Assembly: GCF_037198285.1 (NCBI RefSeq) | Contig: NZ_CP147243.1 | Location: forward strand, 1,976,422 to 2,040,421 | Reading direction: 5' to 3' | Source: Haladaptatus sp. DJG-WS-42 | Lineage (GTDB): Archaea; Halobacteriota; Halobacteria; Halobacteriales; Halococcaceae | DNA: 64,000 nucleotides | Shown here: in pieces, positions 4,781 to 45,290 of the stretch | How positions within the stretch are numbered: position 1 is the stretch's first letter | Layout of the letters: each line of letters opens with the position of its first letter | The notes under the pieces: model-generated | Database searches by the model: none | What the model was told of the DNA's origin: nothing | Seen by the model: the letters and a program-made list of their open reading frames with translations, nothing else | Made by a program: the position numbers and the translations under genes

Positions 4781-6235
4781 TTACTCCACAGGTCGATGCG
4801 GGTCGTCAACCCCATCGAACAAGCCGCCCCACTTCTCGCGGAGGTCGGCAAGGAGTTCGGGGCGCGCACGCGAGACCTTCGGGAACTCATCTTTCCAGTG
4901 GTAGGGTCGCGTCGCGTCTAGTACCGCCCGTGAGTTCGTCAGGTCGCCCGCTTCTTTTCGCTCGGGGGGGATTGTCGGGTCGAGCGTGGTGCTCCAGCAG
5001 CCGTCGATGATGTGGATGTCCGTCGCCGGGTCACACCGCGTTGCGAGCGCCCAGAACACCTCGTCTTGATTGAACACGTCGATGTCGTCGTCTACGACCA
5101 CGGTGAACCGGCCGTGATACCCGCTTCCGCGACCGGAGGCGGCGTGGACGCCAACCTGTTTGCTGTGTCCCGCGTACTGCGTCGAGAGCGACACGATTTC
5201 GAAAAAGCGCGGCCCTGCGGGTAACGAGTTGACCGCTTGGACGCCGGGCATGCCCGCGTTCTTGAGTTCCTTCCATAAGGTGGCGGCGGCGCGCATGTCG
5301 AGCATCCCCTGTGCGGGCGGCGGGAGCGGGAGCCACCCCAGATTAATGGGGTCGTTGCGGAAGTACACTCGTTCGACGGTCATCGGGATTTCCTCGTGAC
5401 CAGTGCCTGCGTAGTAGCCCGTGAACTCGCCGAACGGCCCTTCCGGAACGAGCGCAGAATCGGGATAAATGAACCCCTCGAAGACGAGTTCGGCGTGCGC
5501 CGGAATTGGGAGTCCGGTGACGTCCCCTTCGATTACGTCGACCGACTCCCCGCGAAGCCCGCCCGCGTATTCGAGTTCATTGACCGTGGAGGGGAGCTGT
5601 TGGGTCGCCGCGTAGAAGATGTCGAGGGCGTGGCCGAGCGAGACGACCATCGGCGCGGGCTCGCCCCGGTCGAGGTACGATTTGCGGTTCCGGTTGCCGT
5701 CCATCCCGGGTGAGATGTACACGGTGACCGTGTCCGGCCCCTGCACTTGAACGCGATACACGCCAGCGTTTATGCCCCCGGTTTCGGCGTTGTTGGTAAT
5801 CACCGCACAGCCCGTCCCGATGTACTGCCCGCCGTCGTCTTCGTGCCACCGGGGAGCCGGGAACTCGGTGATGTCGATGTCGTCGCCTTTGTGGACGTTT
5901 TCGAGTACCGGCCCAGACGAGACAAGAGTCGTTGGTGGCAGGTCGGTGACTTTCGCGTCTCGGTGGGCGACTATCGCCTCGCGCTTGCTTTTCGTTGGCT
6001 CGTATCCCATCCCGGCGGAGAACTGGAGCGGGGTGGTCGTCGCGTTCGAAAGCAGCCGATAACCCGGTTCGTGGCCGACGATGTTGTCGAACAGGAGCGC
6101 CGGAGACGGGCGCTGTTTTATCATGAGTTCGGTCAACCCGCCGATTTCGAGCTCCCAGTCTGCTCCGTCAACGACCTTGAGTTCGCCCTGTTCGTCCAGA
6201 AACTCGATGTACCCACGGAGGTCGTGGAAGCTCAT
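4781..6235 (-). CDS. ubiD: UbiD-family prenylated-FMN-dependent decarboxylase
   Basis: The protein (484 aa) matches UbiD (de)carboxylases in length and layout. It begins with the usual MSFHDLRGYIEFL and shows the conserved VYR-x-Q strand (Arg161) and the EGPFGEFTGYY segment. Arg161, Glu265 and Glu270 match the Glu-Arg-Glu network that these enzymes use. They remove (or add) CO2 on unsaturated or aromatic acids using prenylated FMN; the maker of that cofactor, UbiX, is encoded about 5.4 kb away at 11662. The gene is divergent from the molybdenum hydroxylase operon. Haloarchaea have other UbiD paralogues for respiratory quinones, but the catabolic setting suggests decarboxylation of an aromatic or hydroxy-pyridine acid. 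Confidence 0.9.
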   Translation of the reverse strand: MSFHDLRGYIEFLDEQGELKVVDGADWELEIGGLTELMIKQRPSPALLFDNIVGHEPGYRLLSNATTTPLQFSAGMGYEPTKSKREAIVAHRDAKVTDLPPTTLVSSGPVLENVHKGDDIDITEFPAPRWHEDDGGQYIGTGCAVITNNAETGGINAGVYRVQVQGPDTVTVYISPGMDGNRNRKSYLDRGEPAPMVVSLGHALDIFYAATQQLPSTVNELEYAGGLRGESVDVIEGDVTGLPIPAHAELVFEGFIYPDSALVPEGPFGEFTGYYAGTGHEEIPMTVERVYFRNDPINLGWLPLPPPAQGMLDMRAAATLWKELKNAGMPGVQAVNSLPAGPRFFEIVSLSTQYAGHSKQVGVHAASGRGSGYHGRFTVVVDDDIDVFNQDEVFWALATRCDPATDIHIIDGCWSTTLDPTIPPERKEAGDLTNSRAVLDATRPYHWKDEFPKVSRARPELLADLREKWGGLFDGVDDPHRPVE

Positions 6236-6448
6236 CGTGCTCCCCGGATTCGGCGAGTGTGCGGGTTTCCGACTGGCGCACAGGTCGGTCTGAGAGACGC
6301 TGTGGTCTTCATTGCTGTTCGCTAGAGATTTTCTCGCAGTCCTCTTTAAGATTATGCGGCAGGTGAGCGCAAAACGCCCGCTGGCGGAGGATACTCCGTG
6401 TACCGCCTGAGAAAACTATAATTGGAATCGAGGTATTGTATAAGGTAT
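6236..6448. promoter_or_regulatory. divergent promoter region, ubiD / molybdenum hydroxylase operon
   Basis: This 213-bp intergenic stretch separates ubiD from the hydroxylase operon. The A/T-rich run around 6413-6422 (AAACTATAAT) lies about 27-35 bp upstream of the ATG at 6449 and is a credible archaeal TATA box for the plus-strand operon. Another A/T-rich block around 6440-6450 is too close to act for that start. No strong palindrome is obvious by eye. Confidence 0.45.
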
Positions 6449-7321
6449 ATGAAAGATTTTGCGTACTGTAGTCCATCGTCTGTCGAGGGGGTGTGCGAGC
6501 TGTTAGCGACTTACAGGGGCCGCGCAACCGTGCTTGCTGGCGGCCAGAGTTTGCTCCCCGTGCTTCGGTTAGGCATGGCTTCCCCCGAGGTCATCATCGA
6601 CATTAACAACCTCTCCGGATGCGACCACCTCCACGTCGACGGGGACCACCTCGCCATTGGCTGTCTCGTGCGCCACGCTGACGTTGCGCGCTCTGCGACG
6701 GTCCGAGACAACTGTCTCGTCCTCGCGGAAGTCGCCGGGGGTATCGGGGACGTACAGATTCGAAATCGCGGGACGATATGTGGCTCGCTCGCGCAGGCCG
6801 ACCCCGCAGGCGACCCGCCGGTGCTGGCGACGCTATTGAACGCCGACATCGTCGCAACCGACGCTACGGGCGAAACCGTGTTCGAGGGAGACGGATTCTT
6901 CGCCGGACTGTTCGAGACCGAACTCGAACCAACGCAGCTCATCACCGAGGTCAGATTCCCCATCCTCACGGACGGGCAGGGGGCGGCCTACGAGAAGTGG
7001 GAGATAAGCGAGGGGGCGTATCCGGTCGCCACGGTCGGGGCGTTCGTCGAATTCGATGATGGGACGGTCACCGATGCCCGCATCGTGACGGGCGCGGTCG
7101 AATTCGGTCCGACGCGCTTTGCGGACGCAGAAGCCCTGCTCGTAGACGAGCGACCGGACGCCCAGTTACTCGAACGAGTGGCCGCGATCGTTCGGGATGA
7201 CTCGAACCCAATCGAGGATGCTGAGGGGAGCGTGCGGTTCAAGCGCGAACTCGTCCGGACGCTCACAGAACGGGCGTTGACGACGGCCGTAAACCGGGCA
7301 ACAGAGGCCGTACTCGCATGA
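6449..7321 (+). CDS. molybdenum hydroxylase, FAD-binding (medium) subunit
   Basis: This is the medium subunit of a xanthine dehydrogenase/CO dehydrogenase-type enzyme (CoxM/CutM-like), about 290 residues. The FAD_binding_5 segments are visible: VLAGGQSLLPVLRLGMASP near the N-terminus and the second flavin motif IRNRGTICGSLAQADPAGD. I chose the ATG at 6449 (MKDFAYCSPSS) rather than the earlier 6422 codon because homologues start there and the TATA-like box lies 27-35 bp upstream. It passes electrons from the iron-sulphur subunit to FAD. It is the first gene of a three-gene operon whose reading frames overlap by a few bases. Confidence 0.9.
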   Translation: MKDFAYCSPSSVEGVCELLATYRGRATVLAGGQSLLPVLRLGMASPEVIIDINNLSGCDHLHVDGDHLAIGCLVRHADVARSATVRDNCLVLAEVAGGIGDVQIRNRGTICGSLAQADPAGDPPVLATLLNADIVATDATGETVFEGDGFFAGLFETELEPTQLITEVRFPILTDGQGAAYEKWEISEGAYPVATVGAFVEFDDGTVTDARIVTGAVEFGPTRFADAEALLVDERPDAQLLERVAAIVRDDSNPIEDAEGSVRFKRELVRTLTERALTTAVNRATEAVLA

Positions 7322-7815
7322 TGTCTGAACCCAATCCGTCGGTCGCGGTGACGATGACCCTCAACGGACAGGCGGTCACGGAGACGATTCCCGCACGGAC
7401 GACGCTCTCTGAGTACCTCCGGGAGTACCGACGACTCACGGGAGTCCATCGAGGGTGTGAGACGGTGAAGTGTGGCGCGTGTACCGTGCTGGTCGATGGC
7501 CGCTCGGTCAAGTCGTGCAATATGCTCGCGGCGCAGGCCAATGGCCACGAGGTCACGACGGTCGAAGGCCTCGCAACCGATGGCCACCTGACCGCCATGC
7601 AACAGGCCTTTCTCGACAATCACGGCATGCAGTGTGGCTACTGTACGCCCGGCTTCGTGCTCGCGGCCATCGCGCTCGTAGACGAGAACGACGCTCCCTC
7701 AGTGGACGAGGTACGCCACGGACTAACCGGGAACATCTGCCGGTGTACTGGCTACACGAAAATTGTCGAAAGCGTGCTTGACGCCGCTGATCGAATGCGG
7801 GGTGACGACTCGTGA
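7318..7815 (+). CDS. molybdenum hydroxylase, [2Fe-2S] (small) subunit
   Basis: This 165-residue protein carries both iron-sulphur clusters of the family. The N-terminal ferredoxin-type cluster uses Cys47, Cys52, Cys55 and Cys67; the C-terminal helical-domain cluster uses Cys106, Cys109, Cys141 and Cys143 (CGYC ... CRC). It relays electrons from the molybdenum centre to FAD in the cytoplasm. Its ATG overlaps the stop of the FAD subunit (ATGATG; the second ATG at 7321 is an alternative start), indicating translational coupling. The length fits CoxS/NdhS-type subunits. Confidence 0.93.
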   Translation: MMSEPNPSVAVTMTLNGQAVTETIPARTTLSEYLREYRRLTGVHRGCETVKCGACTVLVDGRSVKSCNMLAAQANGHEVTTVEGLATDGHLTAMQQAFLDNHGMQCGYCTPGFVLAAIALVDENDAPSVDEVRHGLTGNICRCTGYTKIVESVLDAADRMRGDDS

Positions 7816-10220
7816 GCCGGTCGGAACTGACGTCCCACGAACGGGCGACAGAGCGCGACACGGCATCGGTCATCGGTGCGCGTGTCCCCAGCAAACTCGG
7901 GCGAAAGCTGGTTACGGGCCACGGCACATACGTCGATGACATCTCACTTCCCGGGATGCTCCACGGCCGGTTCGTCCGGAGCCAATACGCCCATGCGAGG
8001 GTGACGGCTGTCGATACGAGCGAGGTCGCCGCGATGGACGGCGTGGTACTCGTCTGGACTGCTGCGGACATCGACCCGTACGTCGAGCGCTTTGGCGTCC
8101 AGGTTCGAGACGAGGAGGCACTGGTCACGGATATCGCGCGATACGTCGGCGACGAAATCGCCCTCGTCGTCGCCGAAGACCGCAACACTGCGATTGAGGC
8201 GGCAGACCGTGTCCGCGTCGAGTACGAGAAACTCGATGTGGTGACCACAGCCGAAGACGCACTCGCAGAAGGCGCACCGCTCGTCCACCCGGAACTCGCC
8301 GCAGACGAGGAGTCGGGTGTCGTTGGCAACCTCGTCCGGGAGTACACGGTTCAGGCCGGGGACGTAGAAGACGCGTTCAAAACCGCCGACATCATCATCG
8401 AGGAATCGTTCCAGACCAACAAGACGAACCCGTGTCCGCTCGAACCCCACGGATGCGTCGCAGACTACAACCCCGGAACCGGCACACTGACGATATGGAC
8501 GCCGAATCAAGCACCCCACCTGTTCGTCACGACCCTCGCAAACGCGCTCGTCGGCATTGAGTCAGGAGACATCGTCTGTAAGGTTCCCGACGTTGGCGGC
8601 GCGTTCGGCGTCAAAATCGAGTCGCTCACACACGAAGTGTGCGCCGCCGCGCTCGCACGCCACCTCGAACGGCCAGTCAAAATCGTCTTAGACCGGCTCG
8701 AAGACATGCAGGTCGGCCGCGGCCGAGCCGACGAATCGTTCGACGCGAAACTCGCGGCGACCAGCGACGGGAGACTGGTCGGCATGACCGTGGACATGGT
8801 ACAGAACACGGGCGCACGCGTCGGATTCGGGCTGAACGTCGCGCTCAACCCGATGACGAACATCGACGGTCCGTACCTGATTCCGAATCAGCGTGCGACC
8901 GCGAAAGTGGTGTACACCAACCTCATGCCGTCCACCGCGGTGCGGGGGTTCGGTGACCCGCAGTTCACCTTCGTCCGCGAGCAGTTGGTGGACATGGCCG
9001 CGGCCGCCCTCGGGATGGACCCAATCGAGCTTCGTCTCAAGAACATCGTGACCAAAGACGAGATGCCCATTCGGACGCCGACGGGGCTGCTCTGGCAGAA
9101 CATCGACCTCCCCGAGTGCGTGCGGCGCGTTCGCGAGATGATCGACTGGGACGCACACACGGGCGGGTATCGCACCGACGACGGGAAGCTCCGCGGCGTC
9201 GGCTTCGCCGCCCTCGTCAAGCGCAACGGAAACCGCAACTCGCTCGGATTCGACCTCTCTCAGGCGACCGTGCAGATGGACGTAAACGGCAGGGTCACGG
9301 TGCGCACCGGCATTGCGAGCATCGGGCAGGGCACGGAGACGGGAATCGCCCAAATCGTCGCCGAAACGCTCGGCGTCTCGGTCGAGCGGGTCACGCCGGT
9401 CGTGGGCGACACCGACAGCACGCCTTACGACTTGGGAGTGTGGGCAGACCGGGGAATCGTGTTCGCGGGGTCTGCAGCGGCCATGGCTGCCGAACAACTG
9501 AAAGAGACGATTGTCACGCTCGCCGCCCATCGGCTCGGTGTTGATGAGGCTGCAATTGCCCTTGCAGACGACCGCATCTTCGAGCGCGAGAACCCCGAAA
9601 ACGGGCTTGACATCGAGGCGTTCGTCCGGTGGGCGCTGTTCGGCGGGCGCGAGAGCCGCCCGGCCGCCTTCCGTGACGGCGTGGTGTTACAGGGGCAGGC
9701 GGTGTTCGAAACGCAGGTTGCAACCACCCTCGACCCCGAGACGAACCACGGGAATCTCGGCCACTCCTACACGCACGGCGCGTTGGCCGTACTGGTCGAA
9801 ATCGACCCGGGAACGGGTGATGTCGCAGTTATCGACGTTGCGGTATCAGAAGACCTCGGGCGGGTCATCAACCCGTCGCTCGTGGAGGGGCAAGTCCACG
9901 GCTGTATCGCCCACGCAATCGGTGACGCGCTCTTAGAGCGGATGGCGTACGACGAAACCGGCATCCTCCAGAACGGGACACTCGTGGATTATCACCTCCC
10001 GACGAGCGTTGACGTGCCCATGATTTCCAACATCAGCGAGGTTGAGTCGCCGGACCCAGCGACGCACTTCGGTCAACGCGGCGTGGGTGAGAGTTCGCTC
10101 CTCCCGGTCACCGCGGCGATTGCCAACGCGATTTACGACGCGACCGGGCTCCGCTTCTGTACGCTTCCCATCACGCCAGACCAGCTGCTCGTCCGCCTCA
10201 TTGACGAAGGCGTGGCCTAA
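7812..10220 (+). CDS. molybdenum hydroxylase, molybdopterin-binding (large) catalytic subunit
   Basis: At 802 residues with a GTG start overlapping the small-subunit stop, this is the xanthine dehydrogenase-family large subunit. It shows the N-terminal hammerhead domain (GHGTYVDDISLPGMLHGRFV), a Mo-cofactor loop (VGGAFGVK), the GFGDPQ segment and, near residue 760, GVGE, which holds the catalytic glutamate. The CO-dehydrogenase-specific VAYRCSFR loop is absent, so CO oxidation is unlikely; the sequence is closer to enzymes that hydroxylate heterocycles or aromatic CoA esters. Co-location with a NicX homologue and a UbiD decarboxylase makes hydroxylation of a pyridine carboxylate plausible, but this is inference. 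Confidence 0.9.
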   Translation: MSRSELTSHERATERDTASVIGARVPSKLGRKLVTGHGTYVDDISLPGMLHGRFVRSQYAHARVTAVDTSEVAAMDGVVLVWTAADIDPYVERFGVQVRDEEALVTDIARYVGDEIALVVAEDRNTAIEAADRVRVEYEKLDVVTTAEDALAEGAPLVHPELAADEESGVVGNLVREYTVQAGDVEDAFKTADIIIEESFQTNKTNPCPLEPHGCVADYNPGTGTLTIWTPNQAPHLFVTTLANALVGIESGDIVCKVPDVGGAFGVKIESLTHEVCAAALARHLERPVKIVLDRLEDMQVGRGRADESFDAKLAATSDGRLVGMTVDMVQNTGARVGFGLNVALNPMTNIDGPYLIPNQRATAKVVYTNLMPSTAVRGFGDPQFTFVREQLVDMAAAALGMDPIELRLKNIVTKDEMPIRTPTGLLWQNIDLPECVRRVREMIDWDAHTGGYRTDDGKLRGVGFAALVKRNGNRNSLGFDLSQATVQMDVNGRVTVRTGIASIGQGTETGIAQIVAETLGVSVERVTPVVGDTDSTPYDLGVWADRGIVFAGSAAAMAAEQLKETIVTLAAHRLGVDEAAIALADDRIFERENPENGLDIEAFVRWALFGGRESRPAAFRDGVVLQGQAVFETQVATTLDPETNHGNLGHSYTHGALAVLVEIDPGTGDVAVIDVAVSEDLGRVINPSLVEGQVHGCIAHAIGDALLERMAYDETGILQNGTLVDYHLPTSVDVPMISNISEVESPDPATHFGQRGVGESSLLPVTAAIANAIYDATGLRFCTLPITPDQLLVRLIDEGVA

Positions 10221-43596: not shown

Positions 43597-43703
43597 GCAC
43601 ATATCGCGGTCGGGCGGGCGTTTATGTCTGCCGGATTTCATGCTTCTGGGCCAGCAAAAATCGAAACGGATAAACGCAACACGCCGGTAATCTCATTCAG
43701 AGC

Positions 43704-43785
43704 CGAGATAGCCTAGCCCGGCCAAGGCGGTTGCCTCGAAAGCAACTGTCCCTCGGACTCGTGAGTTCAAATCTCACTCTCGGCG
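43704..43785 (+). tRNA. tRNA-Ser(CGA)
   Basis: An 82-nt cloverleaf is readable: acceptor GCCGAGA pairs with TCTCGGC; the anticodon stem GTTGC/GCAAC encloses CTCGAAA, so the anticodon is CGA (reads UCG, serine); a long variable arm (CTCGGAC region) and the T arm GTGAGTTCAAATCTCAC follow. No intron is seen and CCA is not directly encoded. Its 3' end is duplicated in diverged form 1.4 kb downstream, so it has been an integration target. Confidence 0.9.
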
Positions 43786-43786
43786 T
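43772..43786 (+). repeat. 15-bp repeat of the tRNA-Ser 3' end (left copy)
   Basis: TCTCACTCTCGGCGT at the 3' end of the tRNA gene is repeated exactly at 45221-45235. It covers the acceptor stem, the usual attachment site for tRNA-targeting integrases. Confidence 0.65.
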
Positions 43787-43804
43787 ACCACATTTCTACA
43801 ACCC

Positions 43805-43828
43805 GTGAGCGACTGTGTTGTCGCTCAC
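43805..43828. terminator. stem-loop after tRNA-Ser (terminator-like)
   Basis: GTGAGCGAC and GTCGCTCAC form exact 9-bp arms around TGTGTT. The hairpin starts 20 bp after the tRNA end. A diverged copy (arms GAGCGAC / GTCGCTC at 45257-45263 and 45270-45276) follows the second repeat copy at the same distance. Confidence 0.5.
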
Positions 43829-43879
43829 ACGGTCTGAAATGTTGTGGGAGCCGTCCAGTGAATTTGAACCAAGGAGCGA

Positions 43880-43899
43880 GCGACTGAGGTTCAAATCTC
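43880..43899 (+). repeat. 20-bp direct repeat, left copy
   Basis: GCGACTGAGGTTCAAATCTC occurs here and exactly again at 45098-45117, bracketing the EVE-nuclease gene. The core GGTTCAAATCTC resembles the T arm of the adjacent tRNA-Ser, so these may be partial tRNA copies used as attachment sites. Confidence 0.7.
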
Positions 43900-43957
43900 C
43901 TGCAAAATCTCCGGTACGCTATTAGTGTCTGATTGATAGCTTTTCAACAGGTAAACA

Positions 43958-45091
43958 ATGACGGATATCTCTTTAGAAGATGGTTTTAGGAAAGTCACAG
44001 GCCCAATTGAACACTGGGTCACAACGTTGTACCATGGATATTGGGGGTTTCGTCAAGACAAGAAAGAGGCTTGGAAAGAAATCAAAGTAGGCGAAGTATT
44101 CCTATTCCATGCATCTAAGTCGGCGCTTCAGACAACTCCGAAGAAAAAAGTAGCTGATGTGGGTGGCGGAGTGATCGGGATCGGTGTAGTGGGTGCAAAG
44201 AGTCGAAAAGAAGAGCCAACGTGGTGGGGCGAGCTCCACAACGATGAGATGTATCCGTATCTCATCCATTTCTCAGAGATTCAGTGGTTCGGCGACGCTT
44301 CGTCGATCAGAGACGCACCAGTTAAAGACAAAGACTTGGATGAGATGATCAGAGATGTCCATCTTCTAAATAAGCGTATAATCACTTTTGCTGAGATGGA
44401 CAAGCGTGCTGGCTATCGCATTCCTGCACAGGGTTCACCCGGGAACGTCAAACACCCTCGCAAACTCTTTCCACTCTTACTTGAGCGAATTGAGGGGAGA
44501 CCGATTCAGAATCAAGAGCTACCTGAACAATCTGAAACACAAGATCGCTCACTTTCAGAGTTCCAAGACGATGACTCGGTGCTCACGTCCAGCGGAGAAA
44601 TACGCGACCGCAACCGAGACCGAAATCTGAACGAAGATGTCGAGGAACAAGCGGTTACGTATCGCACGAATATTGGAAGGGTCATTGGGGGAACACTCGA
44701 ACACGAAGCTACGCTCGATATCTTTGAAGATTATTTGTCGGCACGAGGATTTGAAGGGGGTGAAACGGATCGAAGTGATCTTCTGATGGCAAACGATACG
44801 GACGTAATTCTCTGTGAAGCGAAGTCGATACGGGCATACAATGAGCGTGCACAAATCCGGAAAGCACTTGGACAACTCCTCGAATACAGCTACTTTGACG
44901 TACGAAATAACGCGAATTGGGACACAAAAACGCTGTCTCGCTGTCTCCTACTTTCTCGACGCCCGTCCGATCACATACTCACATTTTTAGAGGGGCTCAT
45001 TGAGGATCAAATTCTCACATTCTGGAAGGAAGAAGATGCAATTCGAGGAACGGAGGAATCACTTACTCAACTAAAAGAACTTGTAGAATAA
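43958..45091 (+). CDS. EVE-like domain fused to PD-(D/E)XK nuclease: candidate modification-dependent restriction enzyme
   Basis: The 377-residue protein is soluble and richer in A/T-ending codons than any neighbour. The N-terminal part (about 15-150) has an EVE/PUA-like pattern: VGEVFLFHASKS, GIGVVGAKSRKEEP and YPYLIHFSEIQWFG. After a Asp/Arg-rich linker the C-terminal domain (about 240-375) shows a PD-(D/E)XK core: Glu250, Asp274 (RSDLL) and Glu287-x-Lys289 (CEAKS), then RKALGQLLEY, the helix typical of such nucleases. EVE domains bind modified bases, so the natural guess is a nuclease that cuts DNA carrying modified cytosine. It is a single gene with no methyltransferase partner and lies in a tRNA-bounded cassette. 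Confidence 0.75.
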   Translation: MTDISLEDGFRKVTGPIEHWVTTLYHGYWGFRQDKKEAWKEIKVGEVFLFHASKSALQTTPKKKVADVGGGVIGIGVVGAKSRKEEPTWWGELHNDEMYPYLIHFSEIQWFGDASSIRDAPVKDKDLDEMIRDVHLLNKRIITFAEMDKRAGYRIPAQGSPGNVKHPRKLFPLLLERIEGRPIQNQELPEQSETQDRSLSEFQDDDSVLTSSGEIRDRNRDRNLNEDVEEQAVTYRTNIGRVIGGTLEHEATLDIFEDYLSARGFEGGETDRSDLLMANDTDVILCEAKSIRAYNERAQIRKALGQLLEYSYFDVRNNANWDTKTLSRCLLLSRRPSDHILTFLEGLIEDQILTFWKEEDAIRGTEESLTQLKELVE

Positions 45092-45097
45092 ATCAAA

Positions 45098-45117
45098 GCG
45101 ACTGAGGTTCAAATCTC
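45098..45117 (+). repeat. 20-bp direct repeat, right copy
   Basis: Exact second copy of the repeat at 43880-43899, beginning 7 bp after the nuclease stop codon. The distance between copies is 1218 bp, so the two enclose just this one gene. Confidence 0.7.
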
Positions 45118-45171
45118 TAGCAGGTCAACGCCTCACCACCGTTCGTGGAAGCGCCGCTTTCACTCAACTAC

Positions 45172-45190
45172 GATGCGGCAAAGCCGCATC
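45172..45190. terminator. strong short hairpin
   Basis: GATGCGGC and GCCGCATC are exact 8-bp arms around AAA, between the nuclease gene and the second tRNA-end copy. It may terminate transcription or be part of the integrated element. Confidence 0.4.
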
Positions 45191-45220
45191 GAGGCTCGCA
45201 AACCCTCCGGATTTTCTCAC

Positions 45221-45290
45221 TCTCACTCTCGGCGTCTTTCAACTTTCAACACCCGCGAGCGACGGGCTTGTCGCTCACACCCGAAAAATT
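45221..45290 (+). repeat. diverged copy of the tRNA-Ser 3' end and downstream hairpin
   Basis: The first 15 bp match 43772-43786 exactly; the following 55 bp remain similar (…CAACACCCGCGAGCGAC… against …CTACAACCCGTGAGCGAC…) and keep the hairpin. This gives the right boundary of the tRNA-Ser-associated cassette. No integrase gene lies between the copies. Confidence 0.6.

Follow-up and report, generated by a model that had tools for sequence, protein, structure and literature searches.

The locus and its gene

A gene for an EVE-like domain fused to a PD-(D/E)XK nuclease domain lies on a small insertion at the 3' end of a tRNA-Ser gene in the window, the whole stretch of 64,000 nucleotides analysed from Haladaptatus sp. 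DJG-WS-42. The features of the locus are as follows.

43702-43785, plus strand: tRNA-Ser(CGA), the integration site (ARAGORN)
43772-43786, plus strand: attL-like core TCTCACTCTCGGCGT, the tRNA-Ser 3' end (exact repeat D3)
43787-45235, no strand assigned: inserted cassette of 1,449 bp, carrying the fusion gene and no integrase; absent from G001 and G002
43879-43904, plus strand: inner T-arm-like repeat, left copy (repeat D2, 92% over 26 nt)
43958-45091, plus strand: EVE-like + PD-(D/E)XK fusion protein, 377 aa (ORF with ATG start; full-length haloarchaeal homologues)
43979-44497, plus strand: predicted EVE/YTH-like (PUA superfamily) reader domain, residues 8-180 (model, Foldseek, NCBIfam, fusions to McrB-like ATPases)
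44510-44689, plus strand: disordered and variable linker, residues 185-244 (pLDDT <50; length differs among homologues)
44678-45088, plus strand: predicted PD-(D/E)XK nuclease domain, residues 241-377 (pLDDT ~90; Foldseek; invariant residues)
44705-44707 (E250), 44777-44779 (D274), 44816-44818 (E287), 44822-44824 (K289) and 44873-44875 (Q306), plus strand: predicted catalytic residues
45097-45122, plus strand: inner T-arm-like repeat, right copy (repeat D2, 92% over 26 nt)
45221-45235, plus strand: attR-like core TCTCACTCTCGGCGT, then the ancestral flank CTTTCAACTTTC as in G001 and G002 (exact repeat D3; comparison)

The open reading frame, which an earlier note had picked out from the letters, is a real gene with full-length homologues in other haloarchaea. 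Five of these homologues are non-identical, four with 47-54% identity over the whole alignment and a more diverged one with 38% from G235 (matching Halorubrum lipolyticum). The four are encoded in G277, in G036 (matching Haloarcula argentinensis), in G344 and on the Halosegnis marinus plasmid NZ_CP119803, and a sixth homologue, from G166 (matching Haloferax gibbonsii), is a near-duplicate of the copy in G277. Full-length copies were found in 6 of the 391 sampled haloarchaeal genomes, with the window genome counted among the six. Relatives were recovered with an alignment as query; a single-sequence query for related loci returned none. No relatives were found in the phage and viral contig collections.

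Neither Pfam nor the PADLOC-DB defence models match the whole protein up to an E-value of 10, and a phmmer search of the single sequence against the PDB gave nothing significant. Profile searches against the PDB were likewise not significant (best E 1.7 for alignment A1; best E 1.1, an unrelated helicase, for alignment A4), so that the folds are argued from structural models. The predicted structure displays two domains with a disordered linker between them, and the mean pLDDT is 70 over the whole protein. An assignment to the McrBC type does not fit, as the protein contains no AAA domain (Pfam) and no adjoining McrB or McrC ORF was recognised by eye; the AAA gene upstream of the fusion gene is MoxR-like.

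Insertion at tRNA-Ser

The cassette is bounded by exact 15-bp copies of the 3' end of tRNA-Ser(CGA). In two genomes of the same genus the site is empty and the tRNA 3' end joins the right-hand flank of the window directly. Integration into a tRNA gene is typically recognised by just such a pair of findings, a duplicated tRNA end and an empty site. The fusion gene, the sole gene on the cassette, has a GC content of 47% and a GC3 of 45%, compared to 62-67% and 76-81% in its neighbours. Most homologues are also lower in GC than their surroundings, and part of the low GC may be a property of the family. Horizontal transfer, previously proposed on the basis of codon use, is now borne out by the exact duplication of the tRNA-Ser core, the empty site in two genomes and the low GC. 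A small element that inserted in tRNA-Ser brought the fusion gene with it as cargo.

Elsewhere in the same genome, a second partial T-arm copy is present about 100-150 nt downstream of tRNA-Gly, Glu, Val, Met and Thr genes (L140-L144), as it is in the window at 43786-43904. These copies are joined to a hairpin of the GTGAGCGAC...GTCGCTCAC type and to a GGGAGCGA motif. This T-arm/hairpin unit looks like a repeated module of tRNA 3' ends or an integration scar.

The reader domain

An AlphaFold2 model of residues 1-181 alone reached a pTM of 0.79. Against the PDB, Foldseek placed PH1033 first (1wmm and 2hd9, E 2.5e-5 to ~1e-4), with MJECL36 (2p5d) at ~1e-4; further matches were to YTH, ASCH, THYN1 and other EVE-type structures, and the TM-scores of the matches are moderate (0.48-0.61 by target length). 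YTH domains read m6A. The predicted fold and the best structural neighbours place the domain in the PUA superfamily in its wider sense (EVE, YTH, ASCH). This agrees with the EVE-like domain of the earlier note, with weak support at the sequence level. Here, the Pfam EVE family (PF01878) gives no match up to E 10, and NCBIfam PRK00809, which we take to be an EVE-type family including archaeal UPF0310 proteins, matches far below its curated cut-off (E 0.004 for the full protein, 9e-4 for the domain alone). A PDB profile search with the reader alignment A5 ranked PH1033 first at a non-significant E of 0.31 and also listed 6p0f, the McrB-type 'GTPase subunit of restriction endonuclease', at an equally non-significant E of 1.2.

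All of 23 archaeal and bacterial reader domains keep W20, G45 and G74, and W39, W89 and F105 are close to invariant. The domain also occurs in long proteins of about 50 haloarchaeal genomes, which carry an AAA_5 McrB-like ATPase domain where checked. In Pseudomonas relatives (L056-L059) a reader domain of about 30% identity is fused to a NOV_C/DUF3883 part; this part has a match to the anti-T4 protein PD-T4-1 as well. A gene in a Bipolaricaulota MAG (L055, 7974-10715) combines an EVE-like domain with a DUF805 membrane part and PKD repeats, and no nuclease domain was detected in it.

The nuclease domain

The C-terminal domain is modelled with a pLDDT of about 90, and Foldseek against the PDB returned Nt.BspD6I, XisH-family proteins, Hjc and FokI (best E ~4e-3, probability 1.00), which is the PD-(D/E)XK fold named at the outset. 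The residues then proposed for its core, E250, D274, E287-A-K289 and the ALGQLLEY helix (303-310), are all in place. Of the homologous sequences that cover these positions, all 11 keep H249, E250 and D274, and all 12 keep E287, K289, R301, G305, Q306 and E309. Some members of the nuclease-domain family match XisH, NERD and AHJR-like REase.

This domain is combined with different readers in haloarchaea. In L050 it is found with an SRA domain (SAD_SRA, E 3.6e-5) and a winged-helix-like part, and weaker SRA-like readers are present in L045 (E 0.03) and, by similarity, in L035, L037 and L047. A classical EVE domain precedes it in L048, where the match is weak (E 0.04) and the frame is broken; this EVE-nuclease gene (5933-7013, G259) is split over two overlapping ORFs.

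A putative modification-dependent restriction enzyme

With a probability of roughly three in four, we consider the fusion protein to be a putative single-protein modification-dependent (type IV) restriction endonuclease. This reading is preferred since both domains also occur in combination with other known restriction modules, and the strongest argument is the occurrence of differing base readers before one conserved nuclease domain. Mechanistically, the N-terminal EVE/YTH-like domain would bind a modified base, by analogy to its relatives probably one flipped out of the helix. The PD-(D/E)XK domain, held on a flexible linker, would then cut nearby DNA, presumably as a dimer and with metal ions coordinated by E250, D274, E287 and K289. 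In this way the protein could restrict viruses. The candidate target is most likely a C5-modified cytosine of the 5mC/5hmC type in halovirus or plasmid DNA, and m4C or m6A are not separated from it by sequence.

In the proposed mechanism no methyltransferase would be needed, because the host genome does not contain the recognised base. In agreement with the earlier note, inspection by eye of the ORFs around the gene showed none. Searches of the window genome found neither a C5-cytosine methyltransferase (PF00145) nor a methyltransferase of the HsdM-type N6 family (PF02384), both of which gave matches in control genomes. Since PF00145 is missing from the host, a 5mC/5hmC reader would not attack its DNA. 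One N4/N6 methyltransferase (PF01555) is encoded about 126 kb from the gene. Methylated cytosine has been reported for the haloviruses PhiN and HRPV-3 and methylated adenine for PhiCh1 and HGPV-1 (PMC4284463).

The viruses with methylated adenine also leave room for a variant of the restriction reading, in which N6-methyladenine or N4-methylcytosine is the target instead of C5-modified cytosine. This variant would be in line with the YTH-like structural matches, with the non-significant profile match to McrB-type 6p0f (E 1.2) and with the YTH domain of Thermococcus gammatolerans McrB, which reads m6A according to a citation in PMC7641849. The recurrent dCTP pyrophosphatase neighbour described below points to cytosine, however, and the one N4/N6-type methyltransferase of the host means that recognition would have to be restricted by sequence. 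Such a target is rather unlikely.

A dCTP pyrophosphatase neighbour

A gene for a DCTPP1/MazG-like dCTP pyrophosphatase adjoins the fusion gene in four of six haloarchaeal homologues and in all four Pseudomonas relatives. In the haloarchaeal pairs (L034, L040/L052, L042 and L043/L054) the two genes are arranged tail to tail, and the ends of the fusion gene and of the neighbour of about 120 aa touch or overlap by 4 bp. In the Pseudomonas loci the pyrophosphatase homologue directly precedes the fusion gene on the same strand, and the nuclease-like domain of the fusion differs (NOV_C/DUF3883). The positions of the pyrophosphatase gene are as follows.

L034: 7083-7445
L040: 9281-9640
L042: 7540-7989
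L043: 7963-8325
L056-L059: ~7580-7940

The neighbour family matches PF12643 (MazG-like) and structures of dCTP pyrophosphatase 1 at E 2e-17, and an acidic motif as in all-alpha pyrophosphatases can be seen in its proteins. About 27 of 391 haloarchaeal genomes carry a member (E <1e-14). Chance linkage was rejected at ~1e-12 for three of six adjacent, a rough estimate that ignores gene clustering and shared ancestry.

Close copies of the pyrophosphatase elsewhere in haloarchaea adjoin EVE-HNH proteins (L096 and L097), HNH_2 proteins whose N-terminal domain looks PUA-like by eye (L090 and L092) and McrB/McrC-type loci (L091, L093 and L094, and farther off in L103). In Priestia the gene overlaps one for a DUF3578 protein (McrB-type reader) beside mutT and DUF2075, and in Nocardiopsis it overlaps an HNH gene, though such neighbours are not seen in all bacterial records. 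Genes for SLFN-g3 (DUF2075) helicases often follow the more distantly related copies. In plasmid records several copies stand beside housekeeping or unknown genes, and these mixed neighbours indicate that a link to restriction is not universal for the family.

Three observations were made alongside. The haloarchaeal EVE-HNH genes that overlap a DCTPP1-like gene (L096, 7718-10314; L097, 8004-9450) have a VcaM4I-like architecture. In L091 (4920-7650) a McrC-like gene is apparently split by a transposase-like ORF, with McrB-like and DCTPP1-like genes alongside. MazG-like and SLFN-g3/DUF2075-type helicase genes are found side by side in haloarchaea and on Bacillota plasmids (L100-L102, L104-L108, L145, L154 and L155).

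DCTPP1 has been shown to hydrolyse 5-methyl-dCTP and C5-modified dCTP (PMC7162842). A partner of this kind might therefore hydrolyse modified dCTP, which would keep the DNA of the host unmodified or hamper viruses with modified DNA. It is quite possible, though short of an even bet, that EVE-type modification-dependent enzymes pair functionally with a DCTPP1-like pyrophosphatase that destroys modified dCTP, for self-protection or to starve the virus. The association recurs across readers (EVE-like, classical EVE and McrB type), nucleases (PD-(D/E)XK, HNH and DUF3883) and both archaea and bacteria; the protein of the window would have lost this partner or never needed it. A parallel is given by the MutT homologues beside SauUSI-type enzymes, described by Bell et al. 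(PMC7641849), in whose main text MazG is not mentioned. In the open-access literature no earlier description of a link between MazG or dCTP pyrophosphatase and type IV restriction was found, although absence there is no proof.

The partner was not found in the genome of the window, while other haloarchaea gave matches in the same family search. A remnant in the window was also considered and rejected, as only about 130 bp separate the stop codon from the right repeat and the genome gave no match. Since the partner gene is common in the homologues and missing here, the fusion gene may be a reduced system. One step further, it could be a degenerate passenger that became non-functional after the loss of its pyrophosphatase, and its position as the only gene on the cassette would agree with this. 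This is unlikely, since the ORF is intact and the conserved catalytic and reader residues are all retained, and two Haloferax-type homologue loci are likewise without the pyrophosphatase gene. The fusion protein is probably active.

Other roles of the two domains

A target in RNA was considered as well. Binding to modified RNA is known for YTH and many EVE domains, the N-terminal domain resembles YTH, and an RNA target has been predicted for CoCoNuT systems with EVE-like domains (PMC11090510). In this case the protein would read a modified base in tRNA, rRNA or viral mRNA and cleave RNA or nearby nucleic acid in a manner similar to abortive infection. However, the C-terminal domain matches the DNA nucleases Nt.BspD6I, Hjc and FokI and is common to SRA-fused proteins, whose SRA domains read modified DNA, and the gene that recurs as partner encodes a dNTP pyrophosphatase, which makes this role quite improbable. 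A resolvase-like nuclease of DNA repair or recombination with an accessory PUA domain, instead of defence, would fit the structural similarity to Hjc and XisH but is highly improbable given the patchy spread (6 of 391 haloarchaeal genomes), the plasmid copy, the island location in the window, the low GC and the swapping of modules with McrB and SRA.

Relation to known systems and outlook

The preferred reading, modification-dependent restriction by a single protein, has known counterparts. In the main-text sections of Bell et al. (2020, PMC7641849), EVE-PD(D/E)XK core architectures are reported as putative type IV enzymes. Like the protein of the window they join a reader of the EVE superfamily to a PD-(D/E)XK nuclease without a methyltransferase; in contrast to them, its reader is missed by the Pfam EVE model. 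Nothing is said in these sections of the haloarchaeal subfamily. This subfamily is new, in line with the suggestion of the earlier note that the haloarchaeal architecture might be undescribed, and the EVE-PD(D/E)XK kind as such was already known.

VcaM4I, in the crystal structure of which an EVE domain holds a flipped-out 5mC, is also a single protein with an N-terminal EVE reader and a C-terminal nuclease (PMC7897488). It carries HNH in place of PD-(D/E)XK, and the likeness is one of architecture. Among the closest systems are also the haloarchaeal EVE-McrB-like proteins, with an EVE-like domain homologous to that of the window, and McrB of T. gammatolerans with its YTH-like N-terminal domain for m6A (cited in PMC7641849). 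McrB-type systems employ an AAA+ NTPase and a separate nuclease, whereas in the protein of the window the nuclease is part of the same chain as the reader and there is no NTPase. The haloarchaeal SRA + PD-(D/E)XK proteins (L050, L045, L035, L037 and L047) share a nuclease domain 29-40% identical to that of the window and differ in their SRA or SRA-like reader; HHPV4I, which compares to them, ends in HNH (PMC10101028). The Pseudomonas proteins share the reader, as described above, and also the dCTP-pyrophosphatase-like neighbour, in their case directly upstream, that most homologues have and the window genome lacks; they differ in the nuclease-like C-terminal domain (compare PD-T4-1).

The fusion protein would add a haloarchaeal branch to the single-protein restriction enzymes, with modules exchanged among McrB, SRA and EVE systems. 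As readers of modified bases at high salt, such proteins may become enzymes for base-modification mapping. The association with the dCTP pyrophosphatase is the part most deserving follow-up since, if the pairing is true, the self/non-self control of type IV restriction would take place at the level of the nucleotide pool.
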